A stretch of 42,903 bases of DNA from Clostridiales bacterium (GTDB lineage Bacteria > Bacillota > Clostridia > UBA1381), in NCBI GenBank assembly GCA_029226975.1, contig JAQXZB010000022.1, forward strand, positions 1-42,903. Direction: 5' to 3'. A program made the translations under genes and the position numbers. How positions within the stretch are numbered: position 1 is the first letter of the stretch; every line of letters starts with the position of its first letter. This document shows positions 8,352 through 42,903 of the stretch, in pieces. The notes beneath the pieces were generated by a model. It searched no databases and had not been told where the DNA came from. It was given only the letters and a program-made list of their open reading frames with translations.

Positions 8352-10691
8352 TTACCAAATTTTCACCCGTTCATCCTCCGGCACATACATACCGTCGCCT
8401 TCTTTTATGTCAAAGGCTTCATAAAATTCCTCACAGTTTACAACCACACGGTTTACACGCAGTTTTTCATCGGAATGTAAGTCCACGCTTGCCGCATACT
8501 TGGCATATTCGCGCGTCCTGGTGCTTGCCCATGCCCGAGCCATTGAACGGTAAAGAGCCTTGTAATCGGGATTTTCAAGCCCCGATACAACCTCGGTAAT
8601 ACACTGCACAGCGCCTTGATCTGCTACATTTTCGCTCAAGGTCAACTTTCCGTTCATAGAAATACCGGGAACGCTTTCTATGCCGTCATAAAAAGATACC
8701 ATCTTTTCGCACAGCCTTTCAAAGGCATCGTAATCCTTTTGTGCCCACCAATCGGCAGCGTTGCCGTTTTCGTCAAACTTTGCTCCGTTATTGTCGAATG
8801 CGTGTGTAATCTCATGGGCAATAATATATCCTATACTGCCGAGATTTTCCTCATAGGACGCGTTCACATCATACATCGGCGGCTGAAGTATCGCAGCCGG
8901 GAAGGTGATGTCATTTGAGGTATCGCTGTAGCAGGCGTTTACTGTATACGGATACATTGCCCACTCGCTTTTGTCAACAGGCTTGCCCTGCAATTTTGAT
9001 AATTCCTTTTTGGACGCTTCGCCGACAGCGAGCATATTTTCAAAATAGCTGCCGCCCTCGGACGCGGATTTTATATATACATCGTCAAGGTATGTGTCCC
9101 AATTGTCGGGATAGCCGATTTTAATTTTCATTGCGTTTAGCTTGCGTATTGCTTTTTCCTTTGTTTCATCGCTCATCCATGTTAAATTGCCTATTCGCTT
9201 TTTATACACCGAAATAATATCATTAACCATTTTTAATACGTCCTGCTTTGCCTCTTCGGTGAAATATTTTTCAGCGTAAATTTCTCCGATGTAATCGGGC
9301 ATAACGCTCGAAACAATAATCGCCGCCCGCTCCTCATCGGAATATGTTCCCGAAACTCCCAAATATTCCTGATTAAACACATTTGACGTGTCAATAAATT
9401 CGGTATTTAGCATAGAGCCGTAGTTTAAAATCACACAAAGCTTTACCGCGATTTTAAGCACCTCGATATTTTCATCGCTAAGAAACCGCGCAAATTCCTC
9501 GGTTAATCCAACATCCGTAATAAGAAACTTATCCTCTTTTTGTATGCCCGATGACACCAAAAGCTTTTCGGTATCCACAGACGGGAAAAGTGTCTGTATC
9601 TCATCAAGGGTATAGATATTGTAAAATTTATCCACATTTCCCATATCCTCGGTGTTGAGCATTTTTTCGGCAAGGCTCTTTTCAAAATCATGAAATTTCT
9701 CAAGCCCCAAATCGGTTATTTCCTCACCGGAAAGCTCCATGACTGTTTTGAGATATTTAAGATACGCAGCCTTTTGCACCTCCGTACCGGAAATATAAAA
9801 ATCCTTTGTCATATTCGGATTGTAAACGCCGAAAACGGGTATATACCTTGTGCTGTCCTTAAAATCCACAGTAATGTTAAAAGCGGCAAAGGGCGCACAG
9901 TACAGCTTCTCCATAAGCGTGTTCTGGGTATTCATAAGCTCTGTAACATTATTTGCTTTATCTATCATTTCAAGGTACGGCTTTATGGGCGCAGCACCGC
10001 TTTTATTACGGCTTTCAATATCTAAGATATTGTTATAAAAATCGGCAATTTTCTGCTCCTTTGTGCCTTTTTCCCACTTACCCGATGTAGCCTCTTTTAT
10101 AATCTCGTTCACCTGTGCGGTGCTTTCGTCCTGCAAATCAAACAGAGTTCCCGCAAGCACACGCCCCGGCTTTATTTCAAGGGTGTTTAAGGCATCTCTA
10201 TTAACTGACGCATAAAAATCGTCCTTTTCGTTTGTGCCGTAGAGCGCATACACACGCTGTATAAACAGCTTCATCTGCTCCTTTGTTACATTATCGTTCG
10301 GAGAAAAAATCCCCTCCGCCGTTCCGGCCGCAATCCCTGCGTCAAATACATCTTTAAGTTCCGTTTTTGCCCAATCGGGTATATCCGTAAAGCTTTCCTG
10401 CGGCAGTGCAACCCGCGCGTTGTGTCCTGTAGGCATCGGCAGCTTGCCGAATGCGCGTCCAAGCATTACAATTGCTTCCGCGCGGGTGACGCTTAAATCT
10501 TCGTGAAGCTCACCGTCATCGTAGCCCTTGATAATGTCGCTTTTTTGCACAGTCGGATTATAATCGTCAGCTGCCAAAAGCAGCATATCCGCCACCTCGC
10601 CGCGCGTTGCATACATATCGGCGGCAAACGCCGTATTTCCCAAAAGCATTGCCGCAGCCAATATTGCTGTTATAAGTTTTTTCAATTTCAT
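8352..10691 (-). CDS. Secreted M13-family zinc metallopeptidase (PepO-like) with N-terminal SLH domains
   Basis: A 779-residue protein. A signal peptide covers about residues 1-23 (KKLITAILAAAMLLGNTAFA). SLH-type repeats follow at about 30-150 (VTRAEAIVMLGRAFG, FSPNDNVTKEQMKLF), which would hold it on secondary cell-wall polymer outside the cell. The rest is a neprilysin-type M13 peptidase with substrate motif NACYSDTSNDITFPA, zinc motif HEITHAFDNNG (HExxH), third ligand and acid in SENVADQGAVQC, and the usual C-terminal tryptophan (RVKIW). M13 enzymes are size-limited oligopeptidases. The gene appears to stand alone, with GGAGG about 8 nt before the ATG. Most M13 proteins are lipoproteins, cytosolic or type II membrane proteins; the SLH anchor is a less common build. 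Confidence 0.9.
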   Translation of the reverse strand: MKLKKLITAILAAAMLLGNTAFAADMYATRGEVADMLLLAADDYNPTVQKSDIIKGYDDGELHEDLSVTRAEAIVMLGRAFGKLPMPTGHNARVALPQESFTDIPDWAKTELKDVFDAGIAAGTAEGIFSPNDNVTKEQMKLFIQRVYALYGTNEKDDFYASVNRDALNTLEIKPGRVLAGTLFDLQDESTAQVNEIIKEATSGKWEKGTKEQKIADFYNNILDIESRNKSGAAPIKPYLEMIDKANNVTELMNTQNTLMEKLYCAPFAAFNITVDFKDSTRYIPVFGVYNPNMTKDFYISGTEVQKAAYLKYLKTVMELSGEEITDLGLEKFHDFEKSLAEKMLNTEDMGNVDKFYNIYTLDEIQTLFPSVDTEKLLVSSGIQKEDKFLITDVGLTEEFARFLSDENIEVLKIAVKLCVILNYGSMLNTEFIDTSNVFNQEYLGVSGTYSDEERAAIIVSSVMPDYIGEIYAEKYFTEEAKQDVLKMVNDIISVYKKRIGNLTWMSDETKEKAIRKLNAMKIKIGYPDNWDTYLDDVYIKSASEGGSYFENMLAVGEASKKELSKLQGKPVDKSEWAMYPYTVNACYSDTSNDITFPAAILQPPMYDVNASYEENLGSIGYIIAHEITHAFDNNGAKFDENGNAADWWAQKDYDAFERLCEKMVSFYDGIESVPGISMNGKLTLSENVADQGAVQCITEVVSGLENPDYKALYRSMARAWASTRTREYAKYAASVDLHSDEKLRVNRVVVNCEEFYEAFDIKEGDGMYVPEDERVKIW

Positions 10692-10758
10692 GATGATTTC
10701 CTCCCGAATTTATCATTGATTATTCCTTATAAAGGACATATCTTCCCTCACTTTTAAT

Positions 10759-10968
10759 TTACTGCGGATTTCTCGGAATAATGATGGCAGCTATAATATA
10801 TGCAATAATACCGCTGCCGCCCAGTGCGCAAAACAGCACCCAGCCCAATCTAATCAGCGTTGGGTCCATGCAGAAATATTCTGCTATTCCTGCGCATACG
10901 CCGTCAAGCATTATGTTATTGTTTGATTTATATAATCGTTTTTCCATAATTATCATCTTCCTACTCAT
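10759..10968 (-). CDS. PspC-domain small membrane protein
   Basis: A 69-residue protein with a PspC domain. It has a basic start (EKRLYKSNNN), the signature LDGVCAGIAEYFCMDPTLIRLGW, and one hydrophobic helix (LFCALGGSGIIAYIIAAIIIP). Proteins of this family sit in the membrane and are often linked to envelope stress. The ATG at 10968 overlaps the upstream stop as ATGA and has AAGGAGA 7 nt upstream. A second ATG 7 codons in has only a weak site. No other phage-shock gene is nearby, so the role is open. Confidence 0.8.
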   Translation of the reverse strand: MSRKMIIMEKRLYKSNNNIMLDGVCAGIAEYFCMDPTLIRLGWVLFCALGGSGIIAYIIAAIIIPRNPQ

Positions 10969-11426
10969 TCTGTTCTCCTTTTATAAATTATAAGCTCCGG
11001 GTCTGTACCGTTTTCGCCGTATTTGCTGACTATCAGAAAATCCTCTCCGGCAACCAATCCGTAACATTTGACAGTTTCACCGTCATTAAATTCACATTCT
11101 ACCTGATTGCCTAAGTATATATCTTTATCGTCAAGCAGCTTAACGGCATTTTTGCCGGGCATCGGATACGCCAGATTAACAAACGCGCCGTTTAACGGAA
11201 ACAGCTCATTGATTTTCGGCATACCCAAAATGTCAAGGGAGTTAAACTCCTCAATCAATTTTTCTTTAAATAAATTGTAACCGTCCGTCCCATCGGTGGT
11301 TATGTATTTAGCTATAAAGCATTGTTTGCCGAAAGGACAGCCCTTTGTTTGGGTGCAGCCCATGCATCCGTTGTTTTTGCCGTAACCGCAGTTATCGCAG
11401 TCGGCTCCGCATATTGATTTTTTCAT
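10965..11426 (-). CDS. Cys-rich DUF3795-like protein
   Basis: A 153-residue protein beginning MKKSICGADCDNCGYGKNN. The dense N-terminal cysteines (ICGADCDNC, CMGC, GCPFGKQC) are typical of DUF3795-type proteins and probably bind a metal or cluster. The rest is a small alpha/beta region with NELFPLNGAFVNLAYPMPG and a beta-rich tail. I chose the ATG at 11426, 9 nt after AGGAGG; an ATG two codons earlier is possible. The open frame extends further upstream but without a start signal. It overlaps the PspC-domain gene by 4 nt. The function of the family is unknown. A truncated acetyltransferase-like ORF lies directly upstream, in the same direction. Confidence 0.75.
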   Translation of the reverse strand: MKKSICGADCDNCGYGKNNGCMGCTQTKGCPFGKQCFIAKYITTDGTDGYNLFKEKLIEEFNSLDILGMPKINELFPLNGAFVNLAYPMPGKNAVKLLDDKDIYLGNQVECEFNDGETVKCYGLVAGEDFLIVSKYGENGTDPELIIYKRRTE

Positions 11427-11454
11427 GTTCATTTTCCTCCTGTAATATATTATT

Positions 11455-11553
11455 TCAAACTTTTGACGCCACCTGCGGGTCTTTGTTGTTTGAAATGGCA
11501 CAGCAGATATGCTCCTGTTCCAAATTTTCCTGTGTTAATTTTATAAATTCCAT
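11455..11553 (-). pseudogene. N-terminal remnant of a GNAT/YoaP-type acetyltransferase (32 codons)
   Basis: A good ribosome binding site (GGAGGGG, 5 nt before ATG) starts a 32-codon frame reading MEFIKLTQENLEQEHICCA, then ISNNKDPQVASKV and stop. The EHICCAIS segment followed by NNKD..VASK is the recognisable N-terminus of a family of ~250-residue acetyltransferases in Firmicutes (GNAT with YoaP domain). Nothing of the acetyl-CoA fold follows. The frame stops at 11455, just before the Shine-Dalgarno of the DUF3795-like gene. I read it as what is left after a deletion that removed most of the gene. The family assignment is from memory of the motif and should be searched. Confidence 0.55.
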
Positions 11554-11582
11554 AATACCCCTCCAATTTTTGATTTATATTA

Positions 11583-12179
11583 TTATAGACAGCATATCCA
11601 GTTATCAAGGAATTTCATCTGTTCTTCCGTATGAAACCAGTGTTCTCCGTTTTCCATAACAGTAAGCGTTGCCTTGATTAGATTTGCAAATTCAGAAATG
11701 GTTTCATATGCCGTCAAGTTGTCTTTTTCTCCATACAGAATGTGAGTGGGAACAGTCCATGCAATAGGATGTTCTCTTACATAGCATAGATACTCCCACG
11801 AAAGAGTCTCGCCAAAATCCGTTTGAATTTCTTTTTTGCCGCAAAGTTCATCTTCCGTCACCTTTGCCCACATCATCATATCCGCAATCAGCTTTTCCAT
11901 ATTCACAATGGGAGAAATAAAGTATGCTTTCTCTATTCGTTTATCGGGCAAAGCATTCATTGATAAAAAAGCCCCTATGCTGTTTGCAATCAAAATAACA
12001 GAATCATATCCCTTGCTGTGCAAATCATAAAAACAAGAAAACTCGTTTTTCGCTTCCCATGGATTTTGCGATTTATAGTCAAAGCCAATAACATCACTTT
12101 CGGCAAAGAGATGCTGATAATGCTCTGCTTCCTCCGCACTGCCGCCTTTGCCGTGTACATATATGACTAAACGTTTCAT
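11583..12179 (-). CDS. Small alpha/beta-hydrolase
   Basis: A 198-residue alpha/beta-hydrolase fold protein. The first strand and oxyanion segment read LVIYVHGKGGSAEEAEHY. The nucleophile elbow is ANSIGA, a variant of GxSxG with Ala at the first Gly. The acid is probably in HILYGEKDNLT and the catalytic histidine in NGEHWFHTEEQ. The length is usual for small carboxylesterase/thioesterase-like hydrolases. There is no signal peptide, so it is cytosolic; the substrate cannot be told. It is a single gene on the minus strand between truncated genes. Confidence 0.8.
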   Translation of the reverse strand: MKRLVIYVHGKGGSAEEAEHYQHLFAESDVIGFDYKSQNPWEAKNEFSCFYDLHSKGYDSVILIANSIGAFLSMNALPDKRIEKAYFISPIVNMEKLIADMMMWAKVTEDELCGKKEIQTDFGETLSWEYLCYVREHPIAWTVPTHILYGEKDNLTAYETISEFANLIKATLTVMENGEHWFHTEEQMKFLDNWICCL

Positions 12180-12235
12180 TCTTTACCTCTTTTTCCCTTA
12201 TACCGAATACCGATTGCAATTACAAATATAACTGC

Positions 12236-12859
12236 TTACTTTCTTAAATACTTTGCTGTTATGGTTGTGCCGTTTTCAATCATTTCTTTCGGCGTTCCCG
12301 TAAATACAACTTCGCCGCCTTTTGTACCGGCGAGCGGTCCCATGTCGATAACCTCATCCGCAATGCTTATGATGTCCTTATCATGTTCAACAACAAGTAC
12401 GGTATTGCCTTTATCACGCAGGCTCTTTAAAAGTCTTGCCATTCTGTGTACGTCTCTCGGATGCATTCCGGTGCTGGGCTCATCAAATATGTAAATCATT
12501 CCGCAAAGGGAACTTCCCATATATCTTACAAGTTTAAGCCTTTGCGCCTCACCGCCCGAAAGTGTGGAGCTTTCTCTGTTCATAAAAAGATATGGAAGTC
12601 CTATGTCTATCATACGGTCAAGGGATGCTTTGAGCTGCGTAACTATGGTGGCCGCTCTCTCGTCATTTATCTTGTCAAGCTCTAACCTTAGCTTTGAAAA
12701 CTCCATTTCGCACATATCATTTATATTAAATCCGTTGATTTTGCAGGAAAGCGCAGCCCCGTTAAGACGCTTTCCCTTGCAATCGGGACATTCACGCTCA
12801 TATAGGAATTTTGCGATTTTCTTTAATGTATAGTCAGTCTGCTCCTCTGCACCTTTCAT
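12236..12859 (-). pseudogene. UvrA-like ABC ATPase fragment (end of the first half only)
   Basis: A 207-codon frame homologous to the middle of UvrA-type proteins. It has the zinc-binding start CPDCKGKRLN, LPYLFMNRESSTLSGGEAQR (ABC signature), YIFDEPSTGMHPRD (Walker B and D-loop), VLVVEHDKD (H-loop), and the typical end of the first ATPase half (GGEVVFTGTP). It ends at KYLRK, where UvrA would continue into its second half. The P-loop (Walker A) half of the first domain, the UvrB-binding region and the entire second ATPase are missing, so it cannot act as UvrA. UvrA paralogues are usually 750-950 residues. The start overlaps the upstream stop as TGATG. In-frame similarity may run a few codons further upstream, past a TAG, which points to a deletion junction near 12880. 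Confidence 0.75.
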
Positions 12860-13194
12860 CAGAACAAGCCGCTTAATCTACGCTTGCAAAAGCTTTTTTC
12901 TTTGCAGTGGGGACATTTTAAATATTTTCTTGTAATCGTATGCGCTCCCCAAACATACTCTCCGAGTGTCGGCTTGAATGTGCGGCCGCACTTTTTACAT
13001 TCATACACTCCCGCGCCGTAATCAAGCAATATTGCCGCCGCCAATGCGATGATAAATGTAATGCTGCTTAAAACCACAAGCAAAACCGCCCAGTCAATCG
13101 GGAAAAATTCAAACAATGCCGCACTTATCATAATCAAAATAAGAGATATAAGCAGTATACATACCGATAAAAGAACATTTGCCATGTTTTTCAT
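12859..13194 (-). CDS. Two-TM membrane protein with C-terminal zinc ribbon
   Basis: A 111-residue protein. Two hydrophobic helices lie at about residues 5-28 (VLLSVCILLISLILIMISAA) and 33-60 (WAVLLVVLSSITFIIALAAA). A zinc ribbon follows, with CKKCGRTF near 66-73 and LKCPHCKEKSFC near 93-104. The likely topology places the ribbon in the cytoplasm. The ATG overlaps the stop of the preceding LiaF-like remnant (ATGA). The last residues (KRRLSGLF) run into sequence that seems to come from the UvrA-like gene in another frame, so the natural C-terminus may have been lost. The function is unknown. Confidence 0.65.
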   Translation of the reverse strand: MKNMANVLLSVCILLISLILIMISAALFEFFPIDWAVLLVVLSSITFIIALAAAILLDYGAGVYECKKCGRTFKPTLGEYVWGAHTITRKYLKCPHCKEKSFCKRRLSGLF

Positions 13195-13472
13195 TTTACA
13201 TCAACTCCTCCGAATATGCACGAACCGTTTAAATAAACGGTATATTGATTGTCCTTTGAATTTTGGTGTTTTTTATCGTCAATGCCGCCGAAAAAGGAAT
13301 TGGAATTTACCTTTATATTTACATTATCGGGAAGAAGAATATCCGTCCCTCCGAAAACACAGCAGACATTTATGACGGCATCGTTTTCAAAAACTGCGTT
13401 TCTTAAATCGCATTTTATTCCGCCGAACACCGCGGTAAGCTCTGCACCCTTGAATATTTCATTACTGATATT
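13191..13472 (-). pseudogene. LiaF-like (cell wall-active antibiotic response) C-terminal domain, 5' truncated
   Basis: The frame is open from just after a TAA at 13475 to the stop at 13191. It encodes the repeated beta-helix-like motif of LiaF C-terminal domains: AVFGGIKCDLRNA, CVFGGTDILLPDNV, SFFGGIDDKKH and CIFGGVDVK. Similarity to the domain already starts before the first possible start codon (GTG at 13430), in the segment FKGAELTAVFGG. The usual N-terminal membrane domain is absent and a stop lies where it should be. No ribosome binding site is seen at the GTG. I therefore read it as a remnant, though a 79-residue product from GTG cannot be ruled out. LiaF-type proteins normally dampen envelope-stress two-component systems. 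Confidence 0.6.
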
Positions 13473-13527
13473 TTATTACATTCGGCATGGAATTTATAGG
13501 CAGATTTTTCAGAAAAATGTGTCAGAA

Positions 13528-14745
13528 TTATAGTTTCTTTCCGTCCAAGAACTCCCGCCGAAACTGCGAGGGTGTAACACCCTCCGTCTTTTTAAACACC
13601 TTTGTAAAAACTCTGTAATCGCTATATCCCGCATATGCTGATATTTCGGTTACGGAAAGAGCGGTTGAAAGCAGTAGTTTTTTTGCCTTTTCTATTCGTA
13701 TGTTTGTAAGATATGCCAAAAACCCCACACCTATTTCGTTTTTAAAAAGTCCATGAAGAAGGCTGTTTTCAATAATCGGCTGCAAAATGAAATTCGGCAC
13801 CAACGCATCATCTAAATCGGGATCAATGTCACAGTTATATTTTAGGCTGGGATAGCGGCAGTACATCAGCTCCATATATGCATCCGAAAGCTCCGTTTCA
13901 TCCTCCAACGCGGTCATCTGCTTATCCGTTTTAATGCTCAGCCGAAAAAAGTCCGATAACCGCATCAGCAAATCAGCCGTTTTTTTATCACCGCCCAGCT
14001 GTGCCTGAATACGGATTGTATCAAGGGTATTATACAGAAAGTGAGGATTTACCTGACTTTTTAGATACAGCATTGACATTTTCTGTTCCGTAAGCTCCGC
14101 GCGAAGTATGTCGGGATTTTCCAGGGTTAAATAAAAGGCAAGCGTCATCAGGGTAATTCCCATACCGGAAATCAGCCAGGTGGGATTTATTGCCTGCAAA
14201 ATTGAAACGATACCCTCAATTATAAGCGCCACACCGATTGCCGCTTTCTTTTTCCTGTCAATTTGTCTGCGGTTTTTAAGCAGCAGCCATAAACACAGAA
14301 GCAAATAAAACGCAGTGCTTACATAGCAGACAGATACATGAATACCATCCGAATAATTCCCCTTTTCCGTAACCGCATAATGTACCGGCAAAATCCATGC
14401 CCCAAGCTCTGCCAAAATCAAATAAATCCTTGCCGCAAGATGAAAGCGTACCGGCTTTTTTGTTTCCTCCTCAACCAAAATGGATATGTATCTGTAGAAA
14501 AGATAAACAACAATCGGCATTGTTCCGATAAACAGCCTGTGCAGAATTTCATTTAAAAACGGCCATACGGTTTCCAAGTGGTTTACCGTATAAACGGTTG
14601 CGGCATCAAATGCAAGATGCAGCGGCGTTATAATCAGCAATGCCGAAAAGGTTTCATGAAGGGGCGTATTTCTTCTGCCTGCGCTAAAATATATAAATGC
14701 CACGAAAACCAAAACCAAAATTAAGGCTATTTCCATTCTCATCAT
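13528..14745 (-). CDS. Chimera: LytS/YesM-type sensor kinase N-terminus fused in frame to a partial AraC DNA-binding domain
   Basis: A 405-residue protein. Residues 1-210 carry about six or seven hydrophobic helices. Residues 222-332 form a LytS/YesM-type kinase region with the phosphoacceptor motif SQVNPHFLYNTLDTIR (His235) and the N-box PIIENSLLHGL (Asn327). The ATP-binding domain then stops at once. From about residue 333 the sequence is AraC-type: LFKNEIGVGF, YLTNIRIEKAKKLLL, then a full second HTH (SVTEISAYAGYSDYRVFTKVFKK, GVTPSQFRREF). The first HTH lacks its leading helices. No G-box of a kinase and no receiver domain are present. I infer an in-frame deletion between a kinase gene and an adjacent YesN-type regulator. 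The product is likely non-functional or rewired. AAGGAAG lies upstream of the ATG at 14745. Confidence 0.8.
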   Translation of the reverse strand: MMRMEIALILVLVFVAFIYFSAGRRNTPLHETFSALLIITPLHLAFDAATVYTVNHLETVWPFLNEILHRLFIGTMPIVVYLFYRYISILVEEETKKPVRFHLAARIYLILAELGAWILPVHYAVTEKGNYSDGIHVSVCYVSTAFYLLLCLWLLLKNRRQIDRKKKAAIGVALIIEGIVSILQAINPTWLISGMGITLMTLAFYLTLENPDILRAELTEQKMSMLYLKSQVNPHFLYNTLDTIRIQAQLGGDKKTADLLMRLSDFFRLSIKTDKQMTALEDETELSDAYMELMYCRYPSLKYNCDIDPDLDDALVPNFILQPIIENSLLHGLFKNEIGVGFLAYLTNIRIEKAKKLLLSTALSVTEISAYAGYSDYRVFTKVFKKTEGVTPSQFRREFLDGKKL

Positions 14746-14831
14746 ATGCGTTCACTTCCTTGTCATGTATTATATACGAAGTCTTATATATATGCAAAAA
14801 CGGTCTTGTCAAAGTAAGACCGTATTGCTTT

Positions 14832-15341
14832 TTACAGATATTCGCTCATGATTTTTATTATTTCCTCGGCGTGTTCGCCGGGCGTTTTTGAGTTTGTAAC
14901 CACTACCTTTTTATCGCAGTTTTCATAAAACGCCTTGCGCATAATAAACCGTTCTCTTATTTCCTCAATACTGCTGTTTTTCATAAGCGGTCTGGTTGCC
15001 GCCGCTCTTTCTATTCTCTCCCTGATGGTTTCAAAGTCCGGCGCAAGGTTTATGATAATCCCGTTTTGCCTCAAAGCATCTATGTTGGCTCTGTTTAAAA
15101 CCACACCGCCGCCGGTGGAAATAACGGCTCTGTCCTCCTTTGCCGCTTTCTTCACCACCTCATGCTCTAAGCTTCTGAAATATTCCTCACCGTATTTTTC
15201 AAACAGCTCGTTTATCGTTGTGCCTTCGTTTCTTTCAATACACTCATCAGTGTCGATAAGCTTATAGTCCAGCTTCTTTGCAAGGATTTTGCTTATTTCG
15301 GTTTTTCCGCTTGCCATAAATCCGGTTAATACTATGTTCAT
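14832..15341 (-). CDS. aroK: Shikimate kinase
   Basis: A 169-residue P-loop kinase that phosphorylates shikimate in aromatic amino acid synthesis. It shows Walker A as GFMASGKTEISKIL, the substrate-binding DTDECIE, the STGGGVV Walker B-like motif, and the lid with RPLM. I start it at the ATG at 15341, which overlaps the aroE stop as ATGA and has GAGGTG 8 nt upstream; the longer open frame only runs into aroE. The last base of the Walker A lysine and the Asp pair agree with active AroK proteins. It is cotranscribed with aroE. Confidence 0.92.
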   Translation of the reverse strand: MNIVLTGFMASGKTEISKILAKKLDYKLIDTDECIERNEGTTINELFEKYGEEYFRSLEHEVVKKAAKEDRAVISTGGGVVLNRANIDALRQNGIIINLAPDFETIRERIERAAATRPLMKNSSIEEIRERFIMRKAFYENCDKKVVVTNSKTPGEHAEEIIKIMSEYL

Positions 15342-16195
15342 CTGCCAAACACCTCTTTTTTTATTGCTTCTCCCATGTCCTCGGGCAGCTTCGTTTCCGT
15401 AAAAAGCTCGTAAGCAATTATACCCTGGTATATGAGCATTCCCAAGCCGTTTAACACCCTTGCTCCGCGCTCCCGAGCGCATTTTAAAAACCTTGTCCTG
15501 TCCGGGTTATATATCATGTCTACTACGGAGGTGTTTTCGTCTATGAACGACAAATCCTTTATTCTTTCTATCTGATCCGTTGGCAGAACGTCCGTCTGCG
15601 GCTCCATGCCCGCCGATGTGGTGTTCATAACGAAATCAAAATGCTCGTCCTCAATCTCCGTTTGTATCCTGTAACCCATCTGCTCATATATCGCCTGTCC
15701 AAGTTCCTCTGCCCTTGCCTGTGTTCTGTTCACCACCGTCACCGACAGCGGTTCCTCCTGTATAAAGCGCATCAGCACAGGCTTTACCACGCCTCCCGCG
15801 CCTATAACAAGCAATTTTTTGCCGCGTATCTCCATTCCTGCCCTAAGAATGGACATATACAAGCCGTCCGCGTCCGTATTATATCCCCAAAGCTCTCCGT
15901 TACGGTTTACAACCGTATTCACCGAACCCAAAAGCCTTGCCCTGTCGGATATGACATCCAAATACTGCATTACCTCGACCTTATGGGGTGCCGTAACGTT
16001 CACGCCTCTTATTCCCAATGCTCTTATTCCCGCGATTGCCGCGCCGAGCTCTTCTTTTTTTACATGCCATGCCGAATATATGTAATCGTTATGCATTCTT
16101 TGCGATATGAAATTATGCATCTGCGGCGAGAAGCTGTGCTCAATCGGATCGCCGATTATTCCAAGCTGCTTTGTGTGCGAAGTAATGTCAAACAT
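15338..16195 (-). CDS. aroE: Shikimate dehydrogenase (NADP+)
   Basis: A 285-residue AroE. The N-terminal substrate domain begins IGDPIEHSFSPQMHN (Ser-x-Ser shikimate site is S-F-S here), with NVTAPHKVEVMQY holding the catalytic lysine and NTDADGLYMSI the catalytic aspartate. The NADP domain has LVIGAGGVVKPVL and the NRTQAR segment that recognises the adenine-ribose phosphate. It reduces 3-dehydroshikimate to shikimate. It starts 8 nt after AAGGAGAT and heads a two-gene operon with aroK. Its own extended -10 promoter is visible in the 75-nt gap after ppk1. Confidence 0.93.
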   Translation of the reverse strand: MFDITSHTKQLGIIGDPIEHSFSPQMHNFISQRMHNDYIYSAWHVKKEELGAAIAGIRALGIRGVNVTAPHKVEVMQYLDVISDRARLLGSVNTVVNRNGELWGYNTDADGLYMSILRAGMEIRGKKLLVIGAGGVVKPVLMRFIQEEPLSVTVVNRTQARAEELGQAIYEQMGYRIQTEIEDEHFDFVMNTTSAGMEPQTDVLPTDQIERIKDLSFIDENTSVVDMIYNPDRTRFLKCARERGARVLNGLGMLIYQGIIAYELFTETKLPEDMGEAIKKEVFGR

Positions 16196-39880: not shown

Positions 39881-40078
39881 ATGGATAATTTCCAAACCCG
39901 CCCCACCTGCTGCGGCAAGGGCTGCGGCTGTGTAGGCTACGGCTACGTCCCGGAGCAGGTCATGGGCGAAACCTACTGCCCGGCAACGGGGCTTATGCAG
40001 GGGACCGTATTCCCGGAGCTTGATCTTAACATATGCGAATACGGAAAAATATGCAAGCAATGGAGGGGTGAACAGTAA
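39881..40078 (+). CDS. cotJA: Spore coat-associated protein CotJA
   Basis: A 65-residue protein. The C-terminal part carries the CotJA pattern: YVPEQVMGETYCPATGL, GTVFPELDLNICEYGK. A cysteine- and glycine-rich stretch (TCCGKGCGCVGYGY) precedes it and may crosslink or bind metal. It starts after AGGAGTG and its stop overlaps the cotJB start (TAATG). It is the first gene of the cotJ operon, whose products are inner coat proteins. Confidence 0.88.
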   Translation: MDNFQTRPTCCGKGCGCVGYGYVPEQVMGETYCPATGLMQGTVFPELDLNICEYGKICKQWRGEQ

Positions 40079-40380
40079 TGAAAGAGAAAAACGAGCTTTT
40101 TAAAGAAATCCAAAGCAACGGCTTTGCGATGTATGATTTTCTTTTGTACCTTGACACCCATCCAAAGGATAAAACAGCATTTAAAATGTTTAAGGATCTG
40201 GGCGAAAAGCAAGAAGCACTCATATGCGAATACACCTCAAACTACGGACCTTTGACGCCTTTTTGCACAGCAAAGCGTCCCTCCTTCGACTGGCTAAACA
40301 GCCCGTGGCCGTGGGAGCGTCCTCATGATGTGAAATGTGACGCAGCGCAGTGTCCGTGCAAGGAAAAAGGAGGGATGTAA
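40078..40380 (+). CDS. cotJB: Spore coat protein CotJB
   Basis: A 100-residue protein with the CotJB layout: NELFKEIQSNGFAMYDFLLY then LDTHPKDKTAFKMF, YGPLTPFC, and the late WLNSPWPWER. A short Cys-rich tail (CDAAQCPCKEKGG) is extra. It starts at the ATG overlapping the cotJA stop, and is followed 2 nt later by cotJC. Confidence 0.92.
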   Translation: MKEKNELFKEIQSNGFAMYDFLLYLDTHPKDKTAFKMFKDLGEKQEALICEYTSNYGPLTPFCTAKRPSFDWLNSPWPWERPHDVKCDAAQCPCKEKGGM

Positions 40381-40382
40381 AA

Positions 40383-40601
40383 ATGTTCAGTTATGTAAAA
40401 ATGCTGCAAAGACCGATAAACATAAAAAACACCAACCCGCGCCTTGCGAACATAATCGCAACCCAGTACGGCGGCGCCGGAGGTGAGCTTGGAGCTTCTT
40501 TAAGGTATCTTTCCCAGCGCTACACCATGCCTGATGACACCAGTAAAGGTTTGCTTACGGATATCGGTATATATTATCCAAAATGTATCATTTATTTGTA
40601 A
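40383..40601 (+). pseudogene. cotJC: cotJC, manganese-catalase-like coat protein, 3' part displaced by a mobile element
   Basis: AAGGAGG precedes the ATG at 40383. Residues 1-62 are a clear CotJC N-terminus: NPRLANIIATQYGGAGGELG, ASLRYLSQRYTMPDD and GLLTDIG. In CotJC the next residues are TEE[FL]AHLEM, which hold metal ligands. Here the reading turns into ten unrelated residues (IYYPKCIIYL) and stops, so about 130 residues are missing. The break falls at codon 62 (40566-40568). The first metal-ligand glutamate (GGELGASL) is present, but the remaining Glu/His ligands are lost, so the fragment cannot be an active catalase-like protein. Everything before the break is intact, which fits a recent or reversible insertion. 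Confidence 0.9.
40559..40579. other. Candidate attachment site (element-cotJC junction)
   Basis: The break in cotJC homology lies within 40561-40568 (GATATCGG). Around it GGATA (40559-40563) and TATCC (40575-40579) form an imperfect inverted repeat, as often seen at serine-recombinase att sites. The exact crossover dinucleotide cannot be fixed without the other end. Confidence 0.5.
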
Positions 40602-40602
40602 A

Positions 40603-40670
40603 AAAAATTCGCGCCCTCATAACCCTTAATATTTGCTTATTATTACTATCTCATCAAGCACTTCTTTTTA
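40603..40670 (-). repeat. Diverged duplicate of a recombinase 3' end
   Basis: The stretch 40603-40668 resembles 40820-40908 inside the recombinase gene: both have an A-run, CCTTAATAT, then TTGCTTATTATTACTATC. Read leftwards it gives KEVLDEIVIISKY and a stop, against KEVVDKIVIISKF in the intact protein. About 20 nt are missing, which breaks the frame. It looks like the tail of a second, decayed recombinase at the element boundary. Confidence 0.6.
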
Positions 40671-42356
40671 TATCGAAATAAACACAGTAACCTCCATATT
40701 ACTATACATATCCTTGTTATATTGCCCCATTCGTGAGGTGTTTAGGACATCTATTACGGAGTACCTATTGTGTATAATAGGTAGCCATTTACTCTCCGTA
40801 ATGGGCTCGTTATCTGTAAAAAAAAATCCATGCCCCGCACAGCCCTTAATATATACTTCAATATTGAATTTGCTTATTATTACTATCTTATCAACTACCT
40901 CTTTTACTACAGAATCATCAAATACCTCAAAATTAACAAGCTGTGTTATCGTATTGCATATTTCATTAAGCAATTCATCTTTATTATTTAATACTTCAGT
41001 TTTTTTTCTTTCCTCTGATATCTCCGCTTTTAATCTGTTAATGTCCTCCTGATACATATCCATCATCTTTTTAAAATCAGCCTCATTTATCATGTTGTCA
41101 TAATACATATCAATATTTTTCAGTTTTTTACTCTCCAGCTTCTCAACCATCTGTTCAGCCTTTTTGAAATCATATCGGTTTTCTGTCTGTCTGTCTATAA
41201 CCTCATTGACAACTTTCGTCACTTTAGATATGACTGCCTGCTTATTATACGATATTTCATTTAATGCCTGTAAAACTGCCGATTCCAGCACGTCATTGCC
41301 GATAGCCTTATTATTACAGCCTATAATCTCACCATTAACCTCATGTTTAATTCCGTTTTTAATACCGTTATAACAACTCCATATTTTACGTTTACTGCCG
41401 TCCTTACGCTTTCTAAAACGTGCTACATATCTGCGTCCGCAGCATCCGCATTTTATTTTACCTGAAAATGCATATCTGTTTGAATGTTTGCTGTTATCGT
41501 TTTTATACACTTCTGACTTGCGTTTAAATTCAGCCTGAACAAAATCGAATATTTCTCTGTCTATAATCGGCTCATGGTGATTTCTTATGTATACCATTTC
41601 TTCTTCGCCCCTGTTATACTTTTTTTCGTGTGTTAAAAAGTTGGGTGTGATTGTTTTTTTCTGCAATAAGTCACCTACATATTTTTCGTTCTGAAGAATC
41701 GTGCGTATAACTTTGTTGGTCCATTCACTGTTACCGGTCTTGGTTTTATATCCTTCTTCCTGTAATTCTTTGGCAATGATATGTAATCCTTTACCGTCTA
41801 AATATTTATTATATATGTGACGAACTAATTTGGCTTCTTCCTCATTTACCGTTAAAACACCATTTTGCAGATGGTAGCCCAATATATTATGTCCGAATAC
41901 AACACCTTGCTCCATTCGTCTTTTTTGTCCCCATTTTACACGCTCGCTTGTTTTACGGCTTTCCTCCTGTGCTATACTTGCCATAATGGTTAATCTTAAT
42001 TCACCGTCGCTATCCAGAGTGTTTATGTTATCGTTAATAAAATACACTCCTACTCCTATTTGCTTCAAATCGCGCGTATATTGCAAAGTATCAATTGTAT
42101 TTCGTGCAAATCGCGAAACCTCTTTTGTGATAATCATATCAATTTTACCTGCTCTGGCAGCATATATCATATCATTGAACTGCTTTCGTTTTTTCGTACT
42201 TGTACCGCTTATCCCCTCATCTGCATATATATTAACCAACTCCCAATCAGATTTTGAATTGATATAGCTTTCAAAATAGCTTTTTTGCCCCTCAAAGGAA
42301 TTTTTCTGGTCTTCCCTATCAGTTGAAACCCTGCAATATGCCGCAACTTTTAACAT
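40668..42356 (-). CDS. Large serine recombinase (site-specific integrase/excisionase)
   Basis: A 562-residue protein. The catalytic resolvase domain (residues 1-150) has the nucleophile Ser11 in AAYCRVSTD, then YADEGISGTSTKKRKQF and the arginine motif SRFARNTIDT. A recombinase domain follows (FGHNILGYHL, AKELQEEGYKTKTG). The zinc ribbon begins IKCGCCGRRYVARF near 310, with more cysteines 30-50 residues later. A long coiled coil spans about 385-470, with the usual motifs for synapsis control. The last ~50 residues (from TDNEPITESKW) extend beyond a segment that is repeated downstream. It should catalyse integration at, and excision from, the cotJC site. It is transcribed towards cotJC, convergent to it. 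Confidence 0.93.
   Translation of the reverse strand: MLKVAAYCRVSTDREDQKNSFEGQKSYFESYINSKSDWELVNIYADEGISGTSTKKRKQFNDMIYAARAGKIDMIITKEVSRFARNTIDTLQYTRDLKQIGVGVYFINDNINTLDSDGELRLTIMASIAQEESRKTSERVKWGQKRRMEQGVVFGHNILGYHLQNGVLTVNEEEAKLVRHIYNKYLDGKGLHIIAKELQEEGYKTKTGNSEWTNKVIRTILQNEKYVGDLLQKKTITPNFLTHEKKYNRGEEEMVYIRNHHEPIIDREIFDFVQAEFKRKSEVYKNDNSKHSNRYAFSGKIKCGCCGRRYVARFRKRKDGSKRKIWSCYNGIKNGIKHEVNGEIIGCNNKAIGNDVLESAVLQALNEISYNKQAVISKVTKVVNEVIDRQTENRYDFKKAEQMVEKLESKKLKNIDMYYDNMINEADFKKMMDMYQEDINRLKAEISEERKKTEVLNNKDELLNEICNTITQLVNFEVFDDSVVKEVVDKIVIISKFNIEVYIKGCAGHGFFFTDNEPITESKWLPIIHNRYSVIDVLNTSRMGQYNKDMYSNMEVTVFISI
40753..40802. repeat. Nested inverted repeat inside the recombinase 3' coding region
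   Basis: ATTACGGAG (40753-40761) pairs with CTCCGTAAT (40794-40802), and directly inside, TACCTATT (40762-40769) pairs with AATAGGTA (40776-40783). That is 17 perfect pairs with a 10-nt asymmetric bulge and a 6-nt loop. Such a structure is unusual in coding sequence. It may be a protein-binding or recombination site, or part of inserted DNA. Confidence 0.75.
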
Positions 42357-42484
42357 AATTTCTCCTCACTCTCTATTTTTAAAATACATTTGTTTAATTC
42401 TTCCTCTGTTATCAAGCCTCTCTCTTTCAGTGCCTTTACAACACCTATCATCAGTAATGTGTCGAAACTATAATCATCTGCCAT
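42350..42484 (-). CDS. SHOCT-like small protein upstream of the recombinase (44 aa)
   Basis: A 44-codon frame MADDYSFDTLLMIGVVKALK, then ERGLITEEELNKCILKIES and the end EEKLC. The pattern ALKERGLITEEELNK resembles the SHOCT motif found in short proteins encoded next to serine recombinases in Clostridia. Its start overlaps the end of the 50-aa ORF, and its end overlaps the recombinase start codon, so the three are translationally coupled. Candidate roles are DNA-binding helper or directionality factor (inference). Confidence 0.65.
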   Translation of the reverse strand: MADDYSFDTLLMIGVVKALKERGLITEEELNKCILKIESEEKLC

Positions 42485-42626
42485 AACACATCACCCAATC
42501 CTTTATATTATATCGAATTTTTGTTGCCTTGTAGGTGACAAAACTTAATATAATAGAATTTATGATTGACAGAGCATGGACTATTACATTTCCAATTACA
42601 AACAAACTTTCTGCTCGTTTTGTCAT
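42474..42626 (-). CDS. Small hydrophobic protein, first gene of the recombinase operon (50 aa)
   Basis: A 50-codon frame with a strong AGGAGG 9 nt before its ATG. The product starts MTKRAESLFVIGNVIVHALS and continues with IINSIILSFVTYKATKIRYN; residues 8-31 could be a membrane helix. It ends in KDWVMCYGR, overlapping the start of the next ORF. I do not recognise the family. The clean ribosome binding site and coupling to the next two genes support it as real. Confidence 0.55.
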   Translation of the reverse strand: MTKRAESLFVIGNVIVHALSIINSIILSFVTYKATKIRYNIKDWVMCYGR

Positions 42627-42685
42627 TTTTAATTACCTCCTGATTGTAATATAAAATAACAAAACCAACTCATTATCCAAATTAT

Positions 42686-42714
42686 ATTATACCACAAAAC
42701 AGTCAACTTGGCAA
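42686..42714 (-). promoter_or_regulatory. Putative extended -10 promoter of the recombinase operon
   Basis: On the minus strand TTGCCA (42714-42709), 17 nt, TGG-TATAAT (42691-42686). The inverted repeat CAACTT-N8-AAGTTG (42704-42709, 42718-42723) overlaps the -35. It could be an operator or, on the plus strand, where it is followed by T8, a weak terminator. Confidence 0.55.
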
Positions 42715-42769
42715 TGAAAGTTGGTTTTTTTTATCTCAATAAATTCATTTTAAATTTTGATCATATATT

Positions 42770-42903
42770 CTATTCAAACTCTTTAACCGCATTTTCAAGG
42801 CAGCGTATTACCCGGTTGTTAAGATTATTCGGTATCTTGACCTTAACAATCACCTCTTGGTCCCCGAAGTGCTTAACACCATGTATATCCTCATATGGTA
42901 TAC
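42770..42903 (-). CDS. C-terminal end of an unknown element gene (44 codons visible)
   Basis: The frame enters from the window edge and ends at TAG (42772-42770). The visible end reads IPYEDIHGVKHFGDQEVIV, then KVKIPNNLNNRVIRCLENA and VKEFE. It is charged and soluble-looking, with a final amphipathic helix. I do not recognise it. It lies upstream of and in the same direction as the recombinase operon, within the element. Confidence 0.5.
   Translation of the reverse strand, partial: IPYEDIHGVKHFGDQEVIVKVKIPNNLNNRVIRCLENAVKEFE

Follow-up and report, generated by a model that had tools for sequence, protein, structure and literature searches.

The spore coat gene cotJC appears to be carried in pieces in much of the class Clostridia. 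In the stretch of DNA analysed here (the window: 42,903 nucleotides, the whole of contig C22, one of the 123 contigs of the 2.8-Mb, 97.9% complete draft genome G000) it is broken at codon 62, beside a gene for a large serine recombinase (LSR). On sequence evidence, excision driven by this LSR would, with good probability, rebuild cotJC, most likely in the mother cell, as in skin, gin and yin. We consider it likely, with somewhat more reserve, that in the Clostridia cotJC is permanently divided into two to four coding pieces, with independent, long-inherited LSR elements between them at sites reused by separate recombinase clades, with several excisions per mother cell for one protein, the elements acting as safe storage for growing-cell genes such as Cel44O and Cel5I in Ruminiclostridium cellulolyticum. 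Some elements, recent ones especially, may be plain passengers. Cases of sporulation-linked excision have so far been listed singly. Here one small coat gene is split class-wide at fixed positions, in many cases by two or three elements together. What looked like a curiosity would then be a widespread strategy, by which elements live cheaply in a gene that only a doomed cell needs.

The features of the locus are collected in Table 1. Profile searches bear out how the first-pass annotation had read the cotJ operon: cotJA and cotJB are intact, and cotJC is sound up to TDIG (codon 62, window 40567) and then broken. The gene starts at the ATG at 40383, and its match to the Mn_catalase profile PF05067 is limited to profile positions 1-63. 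Past the break the frame continues for some 10 unrelated codons and meets a stop codon at 40599-40601. The adjoining gene, about 100 bp further on, is indeed a full-length recombinase pointing at cotJC: it lies on the minus strand with its C-terminus facing the coat gene, and has the Resolvase, Recombinase and zinc-ribbon domains and the catalytic Ser11 (in MLKVAAYCRVS) that define the LSR family. At the LSR start, abutting or overlapping it, lies a small ORF, both in the window and at 24 of the other 50 LSR loci; these ORFs are not all alike, and to call the one in the window a directionality factor is a guess. About 2.3 kb of the element is contained in the window. Since the contig ends at 42903, inside the element, the far side of the element is absent from it. 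A search of viral contigs with the window LSR confirmed no relative.

Table 1. Features of the cotJ locus and of the left part of the intervening element (positions in the window)
Feature	Position	Strand	Evidence
cotJA, intact	39881..40078	+	PF11007, E 2.1e-10
cotJB, intact	40078..40380	+	PF12652, E 1.6e-26
cotJC 5' piece, codons 1-61 and first two bases of codon 62, to predicted crossover	40383..40567	+	PF05067 positions 1-63, E 1.6e-15; same-codon break in G002, G037 and others
Predicted crossover dinucleotide GG, left attachment site, in Gly codon of DIG	40566..40567	.	Inferred from G002 and G037 ends
Right half-arm of attP palindrome, TATATATTATCCAAAAT, first bases of the element	40568..40584	+	Matches G002/G037 left junctions; inverse of their right junctions
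Large serine recombinase (LSR), 562 aa, reads toward cotJC	40668..42356	-	PF00239, PF07508, PF13408; clade with G002 and G037 LSRs, support 100/100
44-aa ORF overlapping LSR start, weakly SHOCT-like, candidate accessory/directionality factor	42350..42484	-	SHOCT E 0.0027, below Pfam cut-off; counterparts before LSR in G002, G037 and Ruminiclostridium
Intervening element, left part; far end beyond contig	40568..42903	.	Window is entire contig C22

Both ends of such an element can be seen in two relatives. In G002, of the same genus, cotJC is broken at the same codon with a sister LSR adjoining, and the 3' piece lies on a separate contig; in G037, of the same family, both pieces are on one contig, 10.4 kb apart. 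The LSRs of the window, G002 and G037 form one clade (support 100/100), and the recurrence of the same break beside a related LSR indicates that the break in the window is not due to chance. The two pieces rejoin at GG in both relatives, in frame and without a gap, by which DIG-TEEL is restored. Their left ends read GG followed by TACTTATTATCCAAAAT, and their right ends ATTTTGGATAA, a few bases, GG and the rest of cotJC. Combined, the ends form a palindrome centred on GG, ATTTTGGATAATARGTA-GG-TACTTATTATCCAAAAT; a palindrome around a central dinucleotide is the usual form of an LSR attP. The left end in the window, GATATC-GG-TATATATTATCCAAAAT, fits this pattern. The missing part of CotJC had been expected at the far end of the element, and this is where it lies in G002 and G037, whereas in the G000 draft no convincing match to it was found elsewhere with the PF05067 profile, a 134-aa CotJC 3' query or an attR-like pattern.

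This behaviour extends to other piece pairs. Gapless joins at a core of 2 or more bases common to both ends were found for 49 of 53 neighbouring pairs, those on separate contigs being paired by homology only. All 54 junction LSRs read toward the junction, most from within 160 bp of it. The four joins with gaps are those of G237, G264 and G363 (Ruminiclostridium) and site A of G069. In the three Ruminiclostridium genomes the LSR types suggest that two neighbouring elements flank a very short cotJC piece. The ends of the site B gap carry unlike LSR types in G346 (L109, L110) and in G264 (L155, L156), which suggests the same arrangement there.

With the Mn-catalase family as the query, a cotJC-type match was found in 53 of 70 genomes of the family. 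The gene looks split in 38 of these 53, and the breaks have three fixed positions: site A at about codon 33, site B at about codon 62 (that of the window) and site C at about codon 137. At least two complementary pieces were found in 25 of the split cases; in the other 13 one piece was found that stops at a site, and for drafts this may partly reflect contig ends. The first-pass annotation had proposed a comparison with relatives having an unbroken gene, and the remaining 15 of the 53 are unsplit at the three sites. This is a point against the scheme: elements are evidently gained and lost over time, and part of them may have arrived recently. The same break sites recur in the order and the class, with cotJC in four pieces in G207 and in three in G190, G219, G203, G346 and others. 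Thus, of the earlier proposal of one element in cotJC, the element stands, but the gene is a recurrent target, with three sites, several LSR clades and up to three elements per gene. The LSR clades keep to one site, and each of sites A and B is used by two or more well-separated clades in a tree for which the program gave long-branch warnings. A Mn-catalase paralogue (start MFKHEK) that many of these genomes also have appears full-length in almost all of them. LSR relatives in named Lachnospiraceae and Clostridia MAGs (L088, L089) likewise adjoin cotJC pieces. In many gut and cellulolytic Clostridia cotJC may therefore be missed or misread by annotation.

The following course of events is proposed. 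A mobile or once-mobile element would have integrated into codon 62 of cotJC by means of its own LSR. In growing cells cotJC would stay split and the cargo of the element would be kept. During sporulation the LSR would be made, most likely in the mother cell, and would cut the element out at the GG core to leave an unbroken, in-frame cotJC; the spore chromosome would keep the element, and nothing would be lost by inheritance. That the rejoining takes the form of DNA excision, that the mother cell is its place and that the scheme is valid for G000, we infer.

A sigma-K-like motif precedes the cotJ operon in 17 of 33 upstream regions, against at most 4 in any permuted control. In the upstream regions of the LSRs, sigma-E-like motifs were found in 19 of 51 (7.5 expected) and sigma-K-like motifs in 7 of 51 (1.1 expected), above all permuted controls; these are consensus matches from a simple scan and not mapped promoters, and the counts are not independent as the 51 LSRs include close relatives. 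A sigma-K-like block, AC-N16-CATATTATA, is conserved in five Ruminiclostridium species before the small ORF leading into the LSR. Excision might also be reversible and occur in growing cells too, as phase variation or active lysogeny, without a link to the mother cell. In C. botulinum, excision of the yin element from yabG depends on the growth phase and yields a circle (PMC10747680), and the sigma-E and sigma-K motifs are found before a minority of the LSRs only, most lacking a clear one; for the window LSR the nearest match is weak. We nevertheless regard this as unlikely, given the enrichment of mother-cell sigma motifs before the LSRs, the conserved promoter-like block in the five species and the presence of the same motif before the cotJ operons.

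Alternatively, cotJC might be a mere favoured landing site, dispensable and left broken, with excision serving the spread of the element only. In line with this, the catalase activity of CotJC is said to be irrelevant to coat assembly (PMC3533761), some elements carry cargo of a mobile type, such as a type II-A retron, and relatives of the LSRs are found in true phages, among them Paenibacillus phage phiIBB_Pl23, in which GGTACAGAAGAG of site B flanks the integrase. The Ruminiclostridium genomes speak against it. All 11 species searched, closed chromosomes among them, have a split cotJC with the first 33 codons separate. Low dN/dS by itself was rejected as proof of a working split gene: repeated recent insertion would give low dN/dS too, and the selection test was therefore run on a shared ancestral element. 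Five species have in common a 4.66-4.73-kb element whose LSR and GH44 cargo (cellulase cel44O) are the same in all, at 89-93% identity. The dS of its LSR (0.26-0.83) is near that of the cotJC 3' piece (0.15-0.58), which points to one ancestral insertion in the five species, and LSR and cotJC distances agree over 10 species (Mantel r 0.66, p 1.5e-4). The orphaned middle and 3' pieces (148 codons), which by themselves lack a CotJC start, contain 0 stops in the five species and 0-13.5 nonsynonymous changes, where neutral evolution would give 11-39 (p 6e-10 to 8e-22 for single pairs; as these depend on one another, the p-values are not to be multiplied). The dN/dS of the 3' piece is 0.00-0.10, and that of the LSR itself is near 0.1. 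A broken gene would have decayed, whereas these pieces have stayed open at such a dN/dS since the insertion, so that the gene appears not to have been left broken. This is strong indirect evidence that the whole CotJC protein is made regularly, and we regard a mere landing site as unlikely. With matching attachment sites, gapless joins, vertically inherited elements, orphaned pieces under strong purifying selection and mother-cell-type promoter motifs, the relatives strongly support the earlier idea that excision of a serine-recombinase element would restore the cotJC frame.

Over 619 residues the GH48 protein of G190 shows no difference from the PDB chain of Cel48F, a Clostridium cellulolyticum protein. 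The site A element of G190 holds an LSR and a GH44-dockerin gene (cel44O), with no phage gene seen in it, and the site B element an LSR, a GH5-CBM17/28-SLH gene and others. In C. cellulolyticum cel44O (2586 bases) and cel5I (2793 bases) have been described as divergently oriented ORFs with 871 bp between them (PMC3551867), and the coordinates in G190 reproduce these published lengths and this spacing exactly. Together with the Cel48F identity, this match makes G190 almost certainly R. cellulolyticum H10, a laboratory strain for which genetic methods are established and in which the idea is testable. Both cellulase genes lie inside the two cotJC elements, and the 871-bp spacer holds a 33-codon middle piece of cotJC (L105, G190:C1:479000-498900, 9509-15758). 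The gene upstream of cel5I was noted as a resolvase in PMC4976890; the passages on cel44O and cel5I in PMC3551867 and PMC4976890 make no mention of cotJC. That the break is an artefact of assembly or binning is hardly credible, for although the window genome and many relatives are drafts and the contig ends in the element, the same splits are found on the closed chromosomes of G190, G231, G114, G237, G363 and G105, which rules out assembly error, and in G190 the cotJC piece sits within a spacing that agrees with the published account of the cellulase genes.

The sporulation genes listed as split are sigK, spsM, spoVFB, gerE and yabG (PMC10747680; also PMC5595907). None of the open-access papers searched was found to pair cotJC with such an element, in agreement with the first-pass annotation, which knew of none, though absence there is not proof. 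In a C. difficile paper a CotJC-like gene lies, unsplit, just outside the phi027 attR site. Like skin, SP-beta, vfbin, gin and yin, the cotJC elements split a sporulation coding region and have their own serine recombinase, and in the relatives a shared core restores the frame; the window offers the left end only. The gin element in gerE of Bacillus cereus ATCC10987 (PMC5595907) is likewise a non-phage element with serine recombinases that splits a mother-cell gene, which is rebuilt during sporulation, but it has another target, is a single insertion of 28.6 kb with three recombinases, and its excision was shown experimentally. In sigK of B. subtilis and C. difficile, LSR-type excision of skin also restores a mother-cell gene, RDF-controlled in C. 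difficile (PMC5025042); in the case of skin the target is a sigma factor, there is one element per gene and excision is proven. Precise LSR excision of SP-beta rebuilds the spore-envelope gene spsM (PMC4191935); unlike the cotJC elements, SP-beta is an intact prophage with a single target site. The yin element of C. botulinum is, again similarly, a clostridial element in a sigma-K-controlled, coat-related gene, yabG (PMC10747680). It is found in a single strain only, whereas the cotJC split is class-wide and fixed in a genus. There is also LSR similarity to XisF of the cyanobacterial fdxN element (NF041201, 122.6 bits, below cut-off), which differs in splitting a heterocyst gene and not a sporulation gene. 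Excision of the fdxN element in a terminal cell follows the same logic. The cotJC elements thus differ from the skin, gin and yin kind in their target, the number of elements per gene, the reuse of sites by different LSR clades, the genus-wide fixation and the cargo useful to growing cells.

Some further observations concern single elements. In the cotJC element of G037 (L039, G037:C24, 8515-10364) there is a type II-A retron (NDT and RT), after which comes a RelB/RelE-like pair, from which it appears that cotJC elements also carry defence cargo. The phage phiIBB_Pl23 of Paenibacillus larvae (L172, 2296-2420) encodes an LSR that is 58% identical, with the site B stretch of cotJC beside its integrase, and cotJC may thus be the attB of the phage in Bacilli. 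Among the phages, phiIBB_Pl23 alone has an attachment-core match above its shuffles (12 versus at most 11); the matches of MT835739 and DO134P1 do not exceed theirs and were rejected. Finally, a fourth cotJC site near codon 175, at which only the C-terminal tail would be swapped, is possible. The cotJC of two species, G001 (L003/L009, G001:C78, 699-1316) and G053 (L027), ends in a common foreign tail, KRKLTSRKKAHSLRCFAAPIKYKSYDIEL, and in G001 this tail is followed by replication-initiator-like genes.
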